From an uncultured Saprospiraceae bacterium (GTDB lineage: Bacteria; Bacteroidota; Bacteroidia; Chitinophagales; Saprospiraceae), in contig CALFUQ010000065.1 in NCBI GenBank assembly GCA_937929885.1, positions 1 through 34,092 on the forward strand: a stretch of DNA of 34,092 nt. Direction: 5' to 3'. Position numbers and translations under genes: made by a program. The notes below the pieces were generated by a model. The model saw nothing but the letters and a program-made list of their open reading frames with translations, ran no database searches and was not told the DNA's origin. Positions 187 through 26,536 of this stretch are shown in pieces (position 1 is the stretch's first letter; every line of letters begins with the position of its first letter).

Positions 187-708
187 ATGACGCTTCAAGA
201 TTTTTTTGATCTACTTTCTGCTAGTCCCTCGATTATCATATTCTATTTTGTGGCGCTGCCATTGACTGCATTCTTAGCTTGTGTATTTGGAAGGAATGAA
301 GGTCATCTTTCCCCTTGGAAGTATCTTTACTCTTTCTTGATTTATGCCGCTTGTTTACCAGGGATCTTCTCTATTTCTCTTAATGTTTACTTATTTCTAT
401 TCGAGCGACAGAGTATTTTAGATGCTAACTTATATACTCAGATTCTTCCCATAATAGTAATGGGTTTCACCCTTTGGTTTATTAGTAAAAATGTGGATCT
501 TGACAGGATACCTGGCTTTGATAAGGTAGGTGGTTTAATGATGATGATAGCAGGTATACTTGCTTTGATGTGGATGCTAGATAAGACTAGAATATTTGCT
601 ATTACAATTCTTCCATTCTGGGTAGTAATCTTAATAGTGGTCGGTCTTTTGATTGTGGCAAGAGTAGGATTTAAAGGTTTCTTTGCTTCTAATACTAAAA
701 CTAATTAA
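187..708 (+). CDS. small multi-pass membrane protein of unknown function
   Basis: A 173-residue protein with about five hydrophobic segments (roughly residues 17-35, 47-70, 82-100, 115-132 and 138-160), so an inner-membrane protein. I recognise no family motif. It starts 33 bases after the sucB stop on the same strand and is probably transcribed with it. It ends in an 8-base convergent overlap with the metallopeptidase gene on the other strand. The C-terminus (FFASNTKTN) is polar. Composition looks like that of the neighbours, with no sign of transfer. Confidence 0.75.
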   Translation: MTLQDFFDLLSASPSIIIFYFVALPLTAFLACVFGRNEGHLSPWKYLYSFLIYAACLPGIFSISLNVYLFLFERQSILDANLYTQILPIIVMGFTLWFISKNVDLDRIPGFDKVGGLMMMIAGILALMWMLDKTRIFAITILPFWVVILIVVGLLIVARVGFKGFFASNTKTN

Positions 709-1645
709 TCGACCACATCCCAAATTCTTGGATCTGAGTAAATTGACTAAACCCATCATTCCAAACTCTTAATATTGGTTCTTTATAGGCAGGGAACGAA
801 TGCATAAATTCTTCATTAACAAAAACAGTAGTAGTTCCATTTAACTGTCGTATCGTTAGTTTATTCTCAGCCATATTTTCAAATGGAATTCTGAGACAGC
901 CTCTTAAATCATTCCCGATAAACACATCATTGTTATCATGATTAAATTGAACAATATTATACTCAAGAGAACCACTTCCACCATAGAGTAAACTAGTAAA
1001 GGCCCCAGCACGGGTTCTAGTATGAGTAAATTCTATTTCAAAATTCTCTATACCCGCAGCTAAAAACTTATTGAAAGATTCTGTTTCTGGATCTAAAGTA
1101 AGGATCTCTTCTCCTCTTATAGGTTTATCATTGTAATCAAAAGTCTTAGATACCCAATCAGGAGCAACAGTATTCTCATCAAATAGCTCATCGATAAAAT
1201 ACTGGTCTCTATCCCAGATGTAGCACAATGGTATTCTGTTTTGGTTTCCAGTCAAATCACCACGCATCAAGCTCTTCCACATACCATTTTCGAATTGGTC
1301 ATTGCGGTGCGATCTGTCAAGGACACAATGTCCTAGCTCGTGATAGACCAGCCATTCTTTTCTTGATTCTGTACTTTGATCCCATTGCTCTTTATCTATA
1401 CCAATTTCATTAGCGCCAAGCCTATATCGACATATACCTGCATAGTCTGGTGTGGAAATATCTTCCTCAAAAAACATATCAAGACCCGACTCTGTAAGAT
1501 CTATATCCACCCCACGCTTAGATCCCTCAGCAAGAAATCGATCTACATAAGGTTGTAGTTCAGGATCGATGACTACATCATTAGCAGTCTCAGAGCAAGA
1601 AAATAAAATGAAGAAAACTAGAGAAAGGATATATACTCGACTCAT
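701..1645 (-). CDS. putative zinc metallopeptidase lipoprotein
   Basis: A 314-residue protein starting with a lipoprotein signal (lipobox LFSC, Cys17), so probably anchored in the envelope. Residues 102-113 read HELGHCVLDRSH, a zincin HExxH followed by a third His, and a Met (KSLM, about residue 127) sits where metzincin-like folds place their Met-turn. The third His is 11 residues from the first, one more than the classical metzincin HExxHxxGxxH. The C-terminal half (about 195-314) looks like a beta-rich carbohydrate-binding/LamG-like domain, but this is a guess from composition. It is the last gene of the minus-strand operon starting near 4582, 15 bases after the preceding gene. The substrate is unknown. 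Confidence 0.72.
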   Translation of the reverse strand: MSRVYILSLVFFILFSCSETANDVVIDPELQPYVDRFLAEGSKRGVDIDLTESGLDMFFEEDISTPDYAGICRYRLGANEIGIDKEQWDQSTESRKEWLVYHELGHCVLDRSHRNDQFENGMWKSLMRGDLTGNQNRIPLCYIWDRDQYFIDELFDENTVAPDWVSKTFDYNDKPIRGEEILTLDPETESFNKFLAAGIENFEIEFTHTRTRAGAFTSLLYGGSGSLEYNIVQFNHDNNDVFIGNDLRGCLRIPFENMAENKLTIRQLNGTTTVFVNEEFMHSFPAYKEPILRVWNDGFSQFTQIQEFGMWSIN

Positions 1646-1660
1646 AATATCCCGATGTAA

Positions 1661-2185
1661 TTATTTTACAAGTACAGCATCTTCTAGAAGATACATTAGT
1701 CTGTTTATGTCATCACTGTTTAATACCAATTTACCTTTGAGAACAACTTGTTCAGCAGAATATTTAACTGGTTCTTTTGATAAGACTTCCATCACTGTTT
1801 CAGGTCCTGCCCCACCACAGAAAAAACACATGTTATATGGATAAGCTGAGAAAATAAACTCTGTATGACTCTTATATCCCTCTACTGGGATGATATATCC
1901 TTTTACGGTTACTTCTTCTTCTGCGAGTTCTTTGACCTTATCACTAAAAACTGGCTTGTCAATTTTGAAACCCATGATCTCATCATACTCTTTGACATAG
2001 GTAATCTTTGCTAAAGTTTTCCACGTGTTTTCTTTCTTTAGTGTTGCCGTCGCAGCAGCTGGTTCTACGTCAGCTGCTTTTCTAGCTACTTCGATCGCTT
2101 CTTCTTTAGTGGTTGGTCTAGCATCTTGTGCATAGCTTACATTAAAAAACAATAAACCTGCGATGATGATATATATATGCTTCAT
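1661..2185 (-). CDS. secreted DUF3299-like protein with CFFCG motif (paralog B)
   Basis: A 174-residue protein with a signal peptide (cleavage probably after VSYA, before QDARP). An Ala/Glu-rich spacer (about 22-50) is followed by a domain shared with the next upstream gene: VTVKGYIIPVEG, then EFIFSAYPYNMCFFCGGAGPE, then VVLKGKLVLN and YLLEDAVLV. Alternating beta segments starting with GYIIP resemble the OB-fold-like DUF3299 family, but the family's usual Cys/Pro-rich motif is replaced by CFFCGxAGPET. The CxxC could bind a metal or be redox-active. It sits 19 bases after its paralog, in an operon with an ABC ATPase and FtsX-like permease, so an envelope role linked to that transporter is the best inference. 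The exact function is not known to me. Confidence 0.7.
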   Translation of the reverse strand: MKHIYIIIAGLLFFNVSYAQDARPTTKEEAIEVARKAADVEPAAATATLKKENTWKTLAKITYVKEYDEIMGFKIDKPVFSDKVKELAEEEVTVKGYIIPVEGYKSHTEFIFSAYPYNMCFFCGGAGPETVMEVLSKEPVKYSAEQVVLKGKLVLNSDDINRLMYLLEDAVLVK

Positions 2186-2204
2186 TTTTCTTTTTTGTCT
2201 GATT

Positions 2205-2648
2205 TTACAAAATTACGGCTTCTTCCAAGGTATAAAGTAAACCATTTGAATTTTGTTCATTTATTCTTAGGACTCCCTTGAGCCTTATTTTGTTATCTGA
2301 GTACTTTACTTTTTTGTCATTTGACATGAATACTTGCATAGCTGTCTCTGGTCCCGCCGCTCCACAAAAGAAACACATATTAGCAGGAAATAGCGAGAGC
2401 ATAAAGTGGCTCTGGCTTACTTTGCCAGTAAGTGGGATGATATATCCATCTATCTCTATCTCTTGTCCTTGATAGGACTTAGCCATGAATCCTACAGTGA
2501 TCTTATCTATTGTCATACCAAGTGATTCGTCGTAGGTCGACTCTTTCTCCACTGTACCTAAGGTTTGCCACATAGGCGAACCTTGTGCTAAGCAATTGGT
2601 ACTAATTCCAATGAAAAGAAACAGAATGATTAATCTCATCAAGTACAT
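2205..2648 (-). CDS. secreted DUF3299-like protein with CFFCG motif (paralog A)
   Basis: A 147-residue protein with a signal peptide (MRLIILFLFIGISTNCLAQ; a second ATG at 2639 is an equally good start). The mature domain carries IEIDGYIIPLTG, FMLSLFPANMCFFCGAAGPET, IRLKGVLRIN and LLYTLEEAVIL, aligning segment by segment with the 174-residue product downstream but lacking that protein's Ala/Glu-rich spacer. DUF3299-like beta-barrel proteins are known next to LolD/FtsX-type ABC pairs in other bacteria, which matches this context: the permease gene ends 57 bases upstream. The CxxC motif and conserved GPET are likely functional. A metal-binding or metal-delivery role is inference. Confidence 0.7.
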   Translation of the reverse strand: MYLMRLIILFLFIGISTNCLAQGSPMWQTLGTVEKESTYDESLGMTIDKITVGFMAKSYQGQEIEIDGYIIPLTGKVSQSHFMLSLFPANMCFFCGAAGPETAMQVFMSNDKKVKYSDNKIRLKGVLRINEQNSNGLLYTLEEAVIL

Positions 2649-2705: not shown

Positions 2706-3956
2706 CTACTTGCTAAGTGTATTGTGGATGTCAGTTTTATAAGCCTGAATAGCTGGAATAATTGCAGCTACAAATCCAATAGCCAAAGAAGCCAATAGCA
2801 CCCACCATTCTGTCGCTAAGAAGGTCTTACCTGTAAAACTGTATCGATAACTCGATTTGGCATATGACGCTAGGACTTCCATCCCAATATGGCTAATCAG
2901 TAAACCCACCAAGAATCCGAATAATGCCAAAACCATCCCTTCTAATATGATAAGAAAGAAAAGCTTGCCAGGCGATGCCCCCATAACTCTCATCAGCGCT
3001 AGCTCATACTTACGCTCTCTAAGTGATGTAAACAGTGAAATGAAAATACTGAAGGCGGAAACTAATGCAATAATGATGGCAAGATTCCTAAGCGCATCTA
3101 CGCCTATACCGATCATGCTGTATAATCGGTTAATCTCAATCGCAGGAGAAGCAGCTTGCATATCTGTATTCTCATTGATATTTCGCGGCATGTTTAGTGC
3201 TTGGAAGTTAGTTCGATTTTTAAACTGTACTAGGATAGAGGTAATATCCTTATCTGGATAATCTAACAAATTAAAATTACTTACTGCATGATCGCTATGG
3301 TCGTGCCCTTCATGATCTTCGTGACCTCCTCCATCATGATCATGGTTTTCCCATATAGTTGCTAGATTACTAAGTATTAACTGATCCAGTACAGATCCTG
3401 TGGGTTCTAATATGCCTACAACTTTAAATAACCCATCATGCTCCATGTCTTCGGCATCATCAAACCCATGTGAACTCTGAAAAGTATCGCCCAACTCTAA
3501 GCCAATATCAAGGGCTGCAGACTTACCTAGAGTAACTTCAAAATCATTTTCCCATAACTCACCTGATTCTATCTTCCCATCATAGAGATTTAAGATATCA
3601 TGATTAGTACCGACTATCCTGTGCGATTTATAGCTATCGCCTAAAGATAATGGGACATTAGTTTTGATTAGTGGGTGTTCCTTTCTCAAAAATGGCTTTG
3701 CCTCTTCCACATTAATATTTCCTGTAGGATTATCGATGTGATACATACTACACAAGATCATCTGGAGCGGACTCCCCTTTGCGCCAATGACCATATCTAT
3801 ATCCGCTAGATTACGATCAAAATTATTTTTCATTTGACTATTGAGAAGGAGTAATAGAATTATCAATCCTACTCCTAATCCAAACAACACCATACTCAAT
3901 ACCAAATTGAGTGGCCTATGGGTGATATTCTTCCATGCTAGTTTTAACAGATTCAT
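2706..3956 (-). CDS. FtsX-like ABC transporter permease with histidine-rich periplasmic loop
   Basis: A 416-residue MacB/FtsX-type permease: one N-terminal membrane helix (about 18-40), a large periplasmic domain, and three C-terminal helices (about 285-310, 335-360 and 385-408). The motif DMVIGAKGSPLQMILCSMYH marks the subgroup of FtsX-like permeases that pair with a LolD-like ATPase. Residues 205-223 are a run of His, Asp, Glu and Gly (HDHDGGGHEDHEGHDHSDH), as in metal-sensing or metal-chelating loops. The start overlaps the end of the ATPase gene by four bases (ATGA), so the two are translationally coupled. Such pairs usually do mechanical work on envelope substrates rather than import solutes. 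A zinc-related role is inferred from the loop. Confidence 0.85.
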   Translation of the reverse strand: MNLLKLAWKNITHRPLNLVLSMVLFGLGVGLIILLLLLNSQMKNNFDRNLADIDMVIGAKGSPLQMILCSMYHIDNPTGNINVEEAKPFLRKEHPLIKTNVPLSLGDSYKSHRIVGTNHDILNLYDGKIESGELWENDFEVTLGKSAALDIGLELGDTFQSSHGFDDAEDMEHDGLFKVVGILEPTGSVLDQLILSNLATIWENHDHDGGGHEDHEGHDHSDHAVSNFNLLDYPDKDITSILVQFKNRTNFQALNMPRNINENTDMQAASPAIEINRLYSMIGIGVDALRNLAIIIALVSAFSIFISLFTSLRERKYELALMRVMGASPGKLFFLIILEGMVLALFGFLVGLLISHIGMEVLASYAKSSYRYSFTGKTFLATEWWVLLASLAIGFVAAIIPAIQAYKTDIHNTLSK

Positions 3957-4582
3957 GATATCACGATTTGATTTTTGAATCTAGTTTTTAGTCTGTTGTC
4001 ATGAGTGACGATCATCAGGATCGAATTAGCATCCTTTGCCGTTTGTTCTAGTAAGTCAAGCACTTCATCGCAATTCTTGTCATCGAGTGCAGAGGTAGGT
4101 TCGTCAGCAAGTAGGATTGCAGGTTTATTAATGACAGCTCTTGCAATGGCTACTCTTTGCTTTTCTCCTACACTTAGGTCTTTTGTCAGGGCACTTTCTT
4201 TATGTCCCAAATTAAGTGTCTGCAATAAACTTTTGATACGCCCATCATCAACCGGATGACCAGACAGCTTTTGTGCTAACCGCAGGTTATCCATCACTTT
4301 CAAGGAAGAGATAAAATGTGCTGATTGAAAGACTACACCAATACTCTGACCTCTAAATTTATCAAGTTGACCTCCTGTGAGTTTGGAAAGTGATTTTCCT
4401 CCGATCGTTATGTCACCTTTCATTGGCTTAAGCAGACCACTCAGTAAGTGTAAAAAAGTAGTTTTACCTGTACCAGATTGACCTAGGATTAAGTAACTAT
4501 CCCCTGCACTGCAAGACATATCTGGAAATGTAATCCAGTTTGTTTTATCATAGGAATATGCTAGGTCTTTGGTTTCAAGCAT
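3953..4582 (-). CDS. LolD-like ABC transporter ATP-binding protein
   Basis: An ABC ATPase of about 209 residues with Walker A GQSGTGKTT, signature LSVGEKQRVAIARA, Walker B ILLADEPTSALD and H-loop VTHD, in the LolD/MacB/FtsE class that partners FtsX-like permeases. The ORF track starts at 4606, but that codon is TTG and forms the end of a -7 promoter box (TAAATTTG, 4611-4604), so it would lie upstream of the mRNA. The ATG at 4582 (MLETKDLAYSYD) is the better start and fits the family N-terminus. It is the first gene of the five-gene minus-strand operon and overlaps the permease gene by four bases. Confidence 0.9.
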   Translation of the reverse strand: MLETKDLAYSYDKTNWITFPDMSCSAGDSYLILGQSGTGKTTFLHLLSGLLKPMKGDITIGGKSLSKLTGGQLDKFRGQSIGVVFQSAHFISSLKVMDNLRLAQKLSGHPVDDGRIKSLLQTLNLGHKESALTKDLSVGEKQRVAIARAVINKPAILLADEPTSALDDKNCDEVLDLLEQTAKDANSILMIVTHDNRLKTRFKNQIVIS

Positions 4583-4603: not shown

Positions 4604-4611
4604 CAAATTTA
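4604..4611 (-). promoter_or_regulatory. -7 promoter box of the ABC/FtsX operon
   Basis: On the minus strand the sequence reads TAAATTTG, an exact match to the Bacteroidota -7 consensus TAnnTTTG, placed about 22 bases before the ATG at 4582. A clear -33 TTTG at the usual 17-23 base spacing is not visible; the nearest TTG elements are 12 and 26 bases away. The box overlaps the TTG chosen as start by the ORF track. Confidence 0.5.
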
Positions 4612-24448: not shown

Positions 24449-25375
24449 TTATCCTTCTAACTTAAATCTAACTGGTAAGGTGTAAAGTACCTTTACATTT
24501 CTACCTCTCTGCTTTCCAGGAGTCCACTTCTGCGGTAGATTGTTCATGTCTTTTACCACTTTTAGAGCAGCAGCTCCACAACCAGCACCGATATCTCTTA
24601 CAAGATTTGCTTCGGTAACAGATCCGTTTTTATCTACTACGAACTGTATTACACATGACCCCTCCACACCATTTTCTCTGGCGATTGCAGGATAGTTTAG
24701 ATTTTTATAGATGTACTGAAGCATTTTCTTTTTAGCACATTCCTCTTTAGCCTTGTTATCACCTGCTTCATTTTCACAACCAGGGAATCTTGGCATCTGC
24801 TCCACTACTTTGAATATCTCTTCTACTTCTGGCTCTGGTGGTGGTGGTGGTGGAGGCGGTGGTGGCGGTGCTTCTTCTTCTACCGCTACAGGTGCGTCTT
24901 CTACGACTGTCTCTTCCTCTACATCTTGATCTACGAACTCAGGCTCTTCTTCTTCTATAATTTCTTCCTCTGGCACTTCCTCTATCACTGGTGGAGGTGG
25001 TGGAGGCGGTGGAGGAGGTGGCTCTGCAGTTCTTGGAGGCTCAATCTCGATTTCCTCATCAAGCTCCAATGCATCATCTGGTATAAATATGTCATCCTCA
25101 TAAGTCGTCCAACTAAAACCGAGAAGCACTAACGCAAGCGCAGCTGCTAAACCAAATCTTAGAAAAGAACCACTCATACCGAATGCATTTACATCAGGAT
25201 ACTTGTTACGAGCTTTAAGAACAGATCCCCATTCCTTGTCTCGATACTTTTCTGTGAGATCACTACTCCCACTACTCTTAAATTGATTTCTCAAAAAGAG
25301 AATAATGCCTATCACAAGTAATACTAGCACGAGTGCTAGGATTGCTGTCATCTGCCCATTAAATTCTATATCCAT
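24449..25375 (-). CDS. energy transducer TonB (copy 2)
   Basis: A 308-residue protein from the ATG at 25375; the track's start at 25381 is a TTG two codons upstream. One membrane helix (about 9-28) is followed by a second hydrophobic stretch (LRFGLAAALALVLLGFSW), a periplasmic linker with two polyproline runs separated by acidic Glu/Val-rich segments, and a C-terminal TonB domain (MPRFPGCE, LNYPAIARENGVEGSCVIQFVV, PQKWTPGKQRGRNVKVLY). It transmits proton-motive energy to outer-membrane TonB-dependent receptors. Conserved Cys residues (FPGC, EEC, GAGC) are shared with the tandem paralog and may form disulfides. It is the last gene before the strong terminator. Confidence 0.93.
   Translation of the reverse strand: MDIEFNGQMTAILALVLVLLVIGIILFLRNQFKSSGSSDLTEKYRDKEWGSVLKARNKYPDVNAFGMSGSFLRFGLAAALALVLLGFSWTTYEDDIFIPDDALELDEEIEIEPPRTAEPPPPPPPPPPPVIEEVPEEEIIEEEEPEFVDQDVEEETVVEDAPVAVEEEAPPPPPPPPPPPEPEVEEIFKVVEQMPRFPGCENEAGDNKAKEECAKKKMLQYIYKNLNYPAIARENGVEGSCVIQFVVDKNGSVTEANLVRDIGAGCGAAALKVVKDMNNLPQKWTPGKQRGRNVKVLYTLPVRFKLEG
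24837..25021 (-). repeat. two GGN-type microsatellite tracts encoding polyproline
   Basis: Tracts at about 24837-24870 and 24990-25021 consist of GGT/GGA/GGC triplets on the plus strand and encode runs of about 10-11 prolines in TonB copy 2. Codons are mixed, which limits slippage. They make the rigid periplasm-spanning linker. Confidence 0.8.
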
Positions 25376-25393
25376 ATTCAAATAATTTTAAAT

Positions 25394-25567: not shown

Positions 25568-26476
25568 CTATTTCAAGAGTTTAAATTTGATTGGTAGTGT
25601 ATACATCACTTTTACATTTCTGCCTCTTTGCTTGCCTGGTGTCCACCTTTGTGGAAGCTCATTCATATCACTGATAACTTTCGCTGCTGCTTCATCACAT
25701 CCTGCACCTACTTTTCTAACCACATTTATATCTTTTACTTTTCCTTCTTTGTCTATTACAAATTGTAAGACTACTGTACCCTCAATCCCATTACTCTGTG
25801 CCATCTGCGGGTAGTCAAGTTTACTGTAGATATACTCCAGCATCTTCTTATCGGCACATGCTCTTTTTTCTTTCTTTGTGCCTGAGATATCCTCACAGCC
25901 TGGAAACCTAGGCATACTATCTGGAATAAAAACTATTTCGTCAATTGGTTCTTCGATAACTGGGGCTGGAATTGGAATTGGTGCAACATCCTTTTCTTCA
26001 GCAATAGGTCCAGGTTCTTCTATTACCTCATCGTCTTCTATATCCTGATCTACAAAGTCTGGTATATCTTCTTCTATGACTTCTTCATCTGGTATCGGCT
26101 CGATTACTGGTGGAGGTGGAGGAGGCGGTGGTGGCGGTGTAAAAGGTAGTGTCCTTGGAATTACCAACAACTCAGTATCATCAATATCAGGAATCTCAAA
26201 ATAACTCACCTCATCATAAGTGGTCCAACTAAAACTTAGTAACACTACTGCCAGAGAACACATAACTCCGATTTTAAAATTAAACCCTATGTTCTTTAGG
26301 ATATCTACGCCTCCATACTTGTTTCTGCTTGCAAGCGAATTGCCTTCTTCTGTAGTATCTAGATTTTCTTTTCGTAAAAGGAAAAGTGCTCTCACAGAGA
26401 TTATAAATGCAATGATACAAATGGAGAGTAAACATATCGAGATCAATACATTTGTCCCACTAAGCTCGATGTCCAT
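25568..26476 (-). CDS. energy transducer TonB (copy 1)
   Basis: A 302-residue paralog of the following gene, taken from the ATG at 26476 (MDIELSGTNVL), which aligns with MDIEFNGQMTA in copy 2; the track's start at 26518 is TTG and adds 14 polar residues before the membrane helix. It has two hydrophobic segments, one polyproline run (about ten Pro), an acidic Ile/Pro-rich linker (IPIPAPVIEEPIDEIVF) in place of the second run, and a full TonB domain with MPRFPGCE, YPQMAQSNGIEGTVVLQFVI and PQRWTPGKQRGRNVKV. It lies 60 bases after the VanZ-like gene and 192 bases before copy 2. The linker divergence suggests different receptor partners or ages. Confidence 0.92.
   Translation of the reverse strand: MDIELSGTNVLISICLLSICIIAFIISVRALFLLRKENLDTTEEGNSLASRNKYGGVDILKNIGFNFKIGVMCSLAVVLLSFSWTTYDEVSYFEIPDIDDTELLVIPRTLPFTPPPPPPPPPPVIEPIPDEEVIEEDIPDFVDQDIEDDEVIEEPGPIAEEKDVAPIPIPAPVIEEPIDEIVFIPDSMPRFPGCEDISGTKKEKRACADKKMLEYIYSKLDYPQMAQSNGIEGTVVLQFVIDKEGKVKDINVVRKVGAGCDEAAAKVISDMNELPQRWTPGKQRGRNVKVMYTLPIKFKLLK
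26108..26139 (-). repeat. polyproline-encoding triplet tract in TonB copy 1
   Basis: A GGT/GGA/GGC triplet run encoding about ten consecutive prolines in the TonB linker. It corresponds to the first of the two tracts in copy 2. Confidence 0.75.
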
Positions 26477-26536
26477 ACTAAGTTTTGTTTGATTACTACT
26501 ACTTAGATGTGTGGACAAGTTTTTTTGGTGTGTGCC

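Follow-up and report, generated by a model that had tools for sequence, protein, structure and literature searches.

Two DUF3299-like exported paralogs and their MacB-like ABC transporter in Saprospiraceae, with a probable role in transition-metal handling

In a window of 34,092 nucleotides from an uncultured Saprospiraceae bacterium, two adjacent genes encode remote homologs of the DUF3299 proteins, although neither is a formal member of that family. The paralogs belong to a dedicated, co-inherited set made up of a MacB-like ABC complex and one or two OB-fold partners, which has a Zrg-type core and lies near zinc-type genes in other genomes. Our best reading is of a Zrg-like periplasmic module that lacks ZrgA and acts on zinc or another transition metal. 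The two proteins are probably periplasmic OB-fold accessory subunits of this complex.

The paralogs and their relation to DUF3299

The gene designated par1 (copy A; positions 1661 to 2185, minus strand) encodes an exported OB-fold protein of 174 amino acids, and par2 (copy B; 2205 to 2648, minus strand) encodes its exported paralog of 147 amino acids. In the direction of transcription par2 precedes par1, with a gap of 19 bases. The open reading frames and motifs are as given in a preliminary description of the sequence: both proteins contain GYIIP, a CFFCG[GA]AGPET motif, and a C-terminal beta segment. The motif reads CFFCGGAGPET in par1 (residues 120 to 130; positions 1796 to 1828, minus strand) and CFFCGAAGPET in par2 (residues 92 to 102; 2343 to 2375, minus strand). 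The likeness reaches far past the motif, as 43% identity spans 121 residues (E = 2e-35). An additional Ala/Glu-rich stretch described for par1 does exist as an N-terminal spacer after the signal peptide (2024 to 2125, minus strand), with 54 residues before the conserved Trp versus 26 in par2. Its conservation and meaning did not hold up: the length before this Trp ranges from 22 to 79 residues in 99 par1 orthologs, so the spacer is not a conserved feature, and its candidacy as a functional domain was dropped.

The two genes are the sole family members in the source assembly (4.1 Mb). No tandem repeats were found around the locus, and a plasmid search with par1 gave no match. A first scan for related loci with par2 alone as the query returned zero relatives; the related loci carry mostly Saprospiraceae labels. 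Directly downstream of par1, in the same orientation, lies a gene for an exported 314-amino-acid protein with an HELGH sequence (701 to 1645, minus strand), which matches the PhageMetallopep profile barely above its cutoff. Another tandem pair in the window consists of adjacent proline-rich, TonB-like paralogs with nearly identical C-terminal segments (24449 to 25381 and 25568 to 26518, minus strand).

When compared directly with the Pfam DUF3299 model (PF11736), par1 and par2 scored 16.2 and 15.2 bits, both under the gathering score of 22. Nearly all family members (71/72) match the model at an E value of ≤0.1 (best, 5e-6), and members over the Pfam cutoff occur in 6 of 41 relatives' genomes. 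Sequence searches of the PDB gave little: phmmer with par2 found no match, a narrow profile of the family (A2) ranked antibodies over the structure of the DUF3299 protein PA4066 (PDB entry 4HSP), and a broader profile (A1) placed 4HSP at the top, yet with an E value of 0.14. Because such searches alone prove nothing, profile-profile comparison, bridging sequences, and fold were required to place the paralogs. Profile-profile alignment of 172 family members with 11 proteobacterial DUF3299 proteins gave a probability of 96% and an E value of 3.9e-9, the latter for that comparison on its own; the leading Cys of CFFCG falls on the Cys of the DUF3299 motif C[IVS]HxPxPP. HMMs built from either side each retrieved the other, with reversed sequences as the negative control. 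Both paralogs lack the C[IVS]HxPxPPxNQ motif and carry CFFCG[GA]AGPET in its place and in register, in agreement with the proposed replacement of one motif by the other.

Bridging sequences from Bacteroidota, found beside the same permease as par1 and par2 (see below), span the range from CIHVPPPPxNQ to CFFCGGAGPET. They include CCYSVPPEPNE (loci L214 to L217), with E values down to 2e-19 against the DUF3299 profile, as well as CFFHMPGGPET (L207, L210, and L233), CFYCVPGSSET (L213), and CFFCGKNGIP (L206). At one further locus (L069, 5887 to 7111), two adjacent members show another form of the motif, CHFCGxGxIPE. The best PDB match of both single-chain AlphaFold models (pLDDT, 87 for par1 and 92 for par2) in Foldseek was 4HSP, followed by other OB folds; the 4HSP matches had a probability of 1.00, E values of 7e-4 and 2e-3, and a TM-score of only about 0.4, with about 19% of residues identical in the structure-based alignment. 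The top structural matches included no thioredoxin fold, and a thioredoxin-type function was dropped on these grounds. DUF3299 proteins also occur outside zrg-type loci in Proteobacteria, and a literature search found no paper joining DUF3299 with Saprospiraceae.

The CxxC and GPET residues had been proposed to mark a functional site, a proposal to be abandoned if the cysteines were not conserved in orthologs. CxxCG proved invariant in all 51 homologs of the first relatives set, the motif columns C, F, C, G, A, G, P, and E are invariant in 72 of 72 Saprospiraceae-type sequences, and the wider family set retains the first Cys without exception (172/172). The first Cys is likewise present in all 11 aligned DUF3299 proteins. 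The second position, at +3, is Cys in 165 of the 172 sequences, Ser in 4, and His in 3, and proteobacterial DUF3299 proteins have His at +2 from the first Cys. Of the metal or thiol chemistry suggested for the site, the variable second ligand and the His of DUF3299 favor the former, and the sequence comparison thus argues for metal binding over dithiol redox chemistry, with CxxC as the putative metal ligand.

A FastTree phylogeny of 172 family sequences unites the Saprospiraceae-group copies of the par2 type in a single clade (n = 30; support, 0.955). Within the par1-type group (n = 99), 97 sequences group at a support of 0.99 and the full group at 0.43. Both copies occur together at 30 loci, and wherever a tandem pair was classed as B plus A, copy B is the upstream gene. 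About 13 of the 37 genomes in the first family sample have tandem pairs. Copy A is the ancestral, near-universal copy and has a mean identity of 68%, versus 49% for copy B. Six positions around the motif (101, 104, 107, 109, 131, and 133 in par1 numbering) have a different fixed residue in each copy, including His107 in copy A and a His at 109 in copy B. The gene phylogeny thus points to one duplication in Saprospiraceae that gave rise to two diverged subunits, which bears out the earlier suggestion of a duplication kept for two roles. Independent duplications are seen elsewhere, with four copies at one locus (L206) and two DUF3299 genes at each of two Rhodobacterales loci (L241 and L242). At L206 (4996 to 7257), a Fur-family gene lies among the four tandem members, with permease, ATPase, and MerC genes upstream.

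The partner ABC transporter and its Zrg-type relatives

The main functional clue, absent from the preliminary description, is the adjacent MacB-like permease with its His-rich loop. Upstream of par2 and par1 lie a gene for a MacB/FtsX-like ABC permease of the ZrgB/PA4065 family with FtsX and MacB_PCD domains (2706 to 3956, minus strand) and one for an ABC ATPase of the LolD/ZrgC type (3953 to 4582, minus strand; alternative TTG start at 4606), whose last 4 bases overlap the start of the permease gene. Saprospiraceae-like genomes repeatedly show the arrangement ATPase-permease-(B)-A. When 396 Bacteroidota genomes were searched for the par family by alignment and separately for the permease, the par family was found in 64 and the permease in exactly the same 64 (Fisher P of about 1e-75, with no correction for relatedness). 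Among 61 relatives, 38 contain both, 2 the par family only, and none the permease only; the 61 include genomes in which the two lie on different contigs. The permease is therefore an obligate partner of the par family.

Comparison of 79 homologous permeases revealed a His-rich insert in the periplasmic domain (HDHDGGGHEDHEGHDHSDH; 3288 to 3344, minus strand). At least four His residues are present there in 67 of the 79 permeases, and His makes up 22% of the insert versus 2% elsewhere; two proteobacterial permeases have one or two His at this position.

The window permease is 26% identical from end to end to the permeases of the Pseudomonas aeruginosa and Phaeobacter Zrg loci (E = 5e-52 and 1e-43). 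With the Phaeobacter permease as the query in the source genome, the window permease scored 161 bits and the next match 30. Proteobacterial loci have the order ZrgA-ATPase-permease-DUF3299, one of them with a Fur-family gene in front. The Bacteroidota module thus shares with Vibrio ZrgABCDE an ATPase, a MacB-like permease, and a DUF3299 protein in one locus, with homology at the DUF3299 level and a permease family shared from end to end via the P. aeruginosa and Phaeobacter counterparts. It differs in lacking ZrgA (PF10986; in 0 of 61 relatives and over the cutoff in 0 of 396 Bacteroidota genomes, with a model control retrieving ZrgA at L161), in having no ZrgD that we could see, in carrying the His-rich sequence inside the permease, and, in the window, in having CxxCG rather than CIHVPPPP, two DUF3299-like subunits, and no Zur-type box found at the block. 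The PA4063-PA4066 operon of P. aeruginosa has the same order of ATPase, permease, and DUF3299 protein, and PA4066 is the best structural match noted above, but PA4066 is a single copy with CIHVPPPP, and PA4063 (ZrgA) is present. The Rhodobacterales zrg loci show a parallel duplication in the same place, with two adjacent DUF3299 genes after ZrgA-ATPase-permease; there, however, both copies have C[IV]H[TV]PPPP and ZrgA is retained. The FtsX and MacB_PCD domains are common to MacB and LolCDE (type VII ABC transporters) as well. The periplasmic His-rich insert sets the window permease apart from these, no MacA/TolC partner was seen, and the LolCE and MacB models match far under their cutoffs.

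Experimental work on the relatives is divided. In Vibrio, zrgABCDE is Zur repressed and induced by zinc limitation, with zrgE annotated as DUF3299 (PMC9817125), ZrgA binds zinc (PMC9820375), and zrg mutants behave like zinc-uptake mutants (PMC9817125, PMC9820375), although single zrgE knockouts are reported to grow unaffected with chelators (PMC9820375). The PA4063-PA4066 operon has instead been proposed to encode a pyochelin-cobalt exporter (PMC11481552), and PA4066 has no assigned function, is possibly tetrameric, and has a crystal structure with no evident sign of zinc binding (PMC11481552; PMC8561739). The direction of transport in these relatives is accordingly disputed between uptake (PMC9817125, PMC9820375) and export (PMC11481552).

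Metal-related neighbors and a candidate Fur-type box

Among 117 neighbor proteins scanned at distant loci, which were not selected by function, 5 were cobW and 5 were MerC, and Fur-family genes are present at two of the distant loci (L206 and L236). Counted over 39 family-bearing genomes, 14 of 42 cobW genes (0.16 expected) and 8 of 24 MerC genes (0.08 expected) have a family member no more than 5 kb away; related genomes in this count are not independent, and the linked cobW and MerC genes are each drawn from seven taxonomic families. Some COG0523 proteins have been tied to zinc homeostasis (PMC2770081). Because COG0523, MerC, and Fur genes neighbor family copies in other Bacteroidota, the transporter is tied to zinc. 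A literature search found no paper joining COG0523 with Zur in Bacteroidetes.

From upstream regions we derived a candidate Fur-type palindrome, TGCAACANTGTTGCA. In five genomes (G378, G331, G062, G243, and G393), sites that depart from it at zero to two bases stand ahead of family-member, MerC, or cobW genes. The sole one-mismatch site in the source genome lies directly before MerC, beside a Fur-family gene. The box is absent ahead of the main ATPase-permease blocks, that of the window included, and control of the window operon by it was therefore dropped as a candidate. With no such box and with a co-oriented ROK kinase gene upstream of it, the block may be expressed constitutively.

On another contig of the source genome (L243, 6408 to 7864; contig C194), a Fur-family gene, two 7-1-7 palindromes, MerC, and HupE/UreJ_2 together look like a small metal regulon of the source organism. 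Extra DUF3299 relatives, most with CFFCG, lie beside COG0523 and sometimes MerC at L244 (4143 to 6543), L245, L246, L248, and L250, with a TGCAACANTGTTGCA-like site nearby, and L244 has a second group of sites ahead of an ABC-2 (DUF3526) transporter. By eye, palindrome sites also precede probable TonB-dependent receptor genes at L253, L254, and L258, as is expected of a metal-uptake regulon.

Proposed mechanism and competing explanations

In the mechanism that we propose, the His-rich loop of the permease would gather metal, as ZrgA does in Proteobacteria, and the CxxCG sequence would serve as a metal knuckle that takes up the metal or passes it on. The knuckle would take the form C-x-H in DUF3299 and C-x-x-C, rarely C-x-x-H, in the par family. 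Copies A and B may sit on the transporter as two non-equivalent subunits, possibly as a heteromer, and a shared Cys4 site between them is possible. ATP hydrolysis would move the periplasmic domain of the permease and so drive handover of the metal, a step modeled on how MacB-type transporters are known to couple hydrolysis to mechanical movement. The substrate could be zinc or cobalt. In its most specific form, the two knuckles of an A/B heteromer would make up a shared zinc site atop a His-loop MacB-type ABC machine that moves or loads zinc without a classical binding protein; we regard this version as speculative and rather improbable.

Three competing explanations were weighed. The CxxC and GPET residues may be purely structural or form a loop that docks on the permease, so that the association with zinc belongs to the operon rather than to the motif. 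The Gly, Pro, and Glu that flank the cysteines without variation suggest a shaped loop, and no evident zinc binding is reported for PA4066 (PMC11481552); nevertheless, a second position that switches between Cys and His is what metal ligands typically show, and the constancy of the first Cys across all 172 family members and the 11 DUF3299 proteins also speaks against this alternative, which we consider somewhat unlikely. Unlikely, too, is that the same module exports a metal chelate or metallophore, as a MacB-like transporter might, with the OB-fold proteins as assembly or adaptor subunits that have no metal role of their own. The domain make-up of the permease, the pyochelin-cobalt reading of PA4063-PA4066, and the lack of an evident zinc site in PA4066 would fit, but inspection by eye of the loci examined showed neither an obvious MacA/TolC partner nor genes for metallophore synthesis next to them, the neighbors (COG0523, MerC, and Fur) are of the uptake or starvation type, and the phenotype of the Vibrio mutants is that of impaired zinc uptake.

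Improbable, in our judgment, is a redox-active dithiol/disulfide at CxxC, which would make the paralogs thiol oxidoreductase-like proteins or redox sensors for the transporter. Export of the proteins and the invariance of CxxC in Saprospiraceae-type sequences are what such a function would call for; against it stand the His and Ser at the second position in CFFHMPGGPET and CCYSVPPEPNE beside the same permease, the single Cys (CxH) of DUF3299, and the predicted OB barrel in place of a thioredoxin fold. The preferred reading, of OB-fold accessory subunits in a metal-handling ABC complex, has points against it as well: the missing Fur-type box at the window, the missing ZrgA, the Pfam scores below the cutoff, and the low TM-score, together with the lack of evident zinc in PA4066, the pyochelin-cobalt export proposal (PMC11481552), and the zrgE knockouts without a growth effect (PMC9820375).

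For DUF3299/ZrgE a crystal structure exists and a function is lacking, and import versus export by Zrg/PA4063-type MacB systems is disputed. In Bacteroidota the system is simpler, with no ZrgA, a predicted metal-binding sequence fused into the permease, and an invariant Cys site. Its two diverged DUF3299-like subunits belong to a family that is present exactly where the permease is across 396 genomes, and a putative Fur-type regulon in Bacteroidota is indicated. With the Bacteroidota pair, what the DUF3299 subunit and its Cys/His site do can be put to a direct test.
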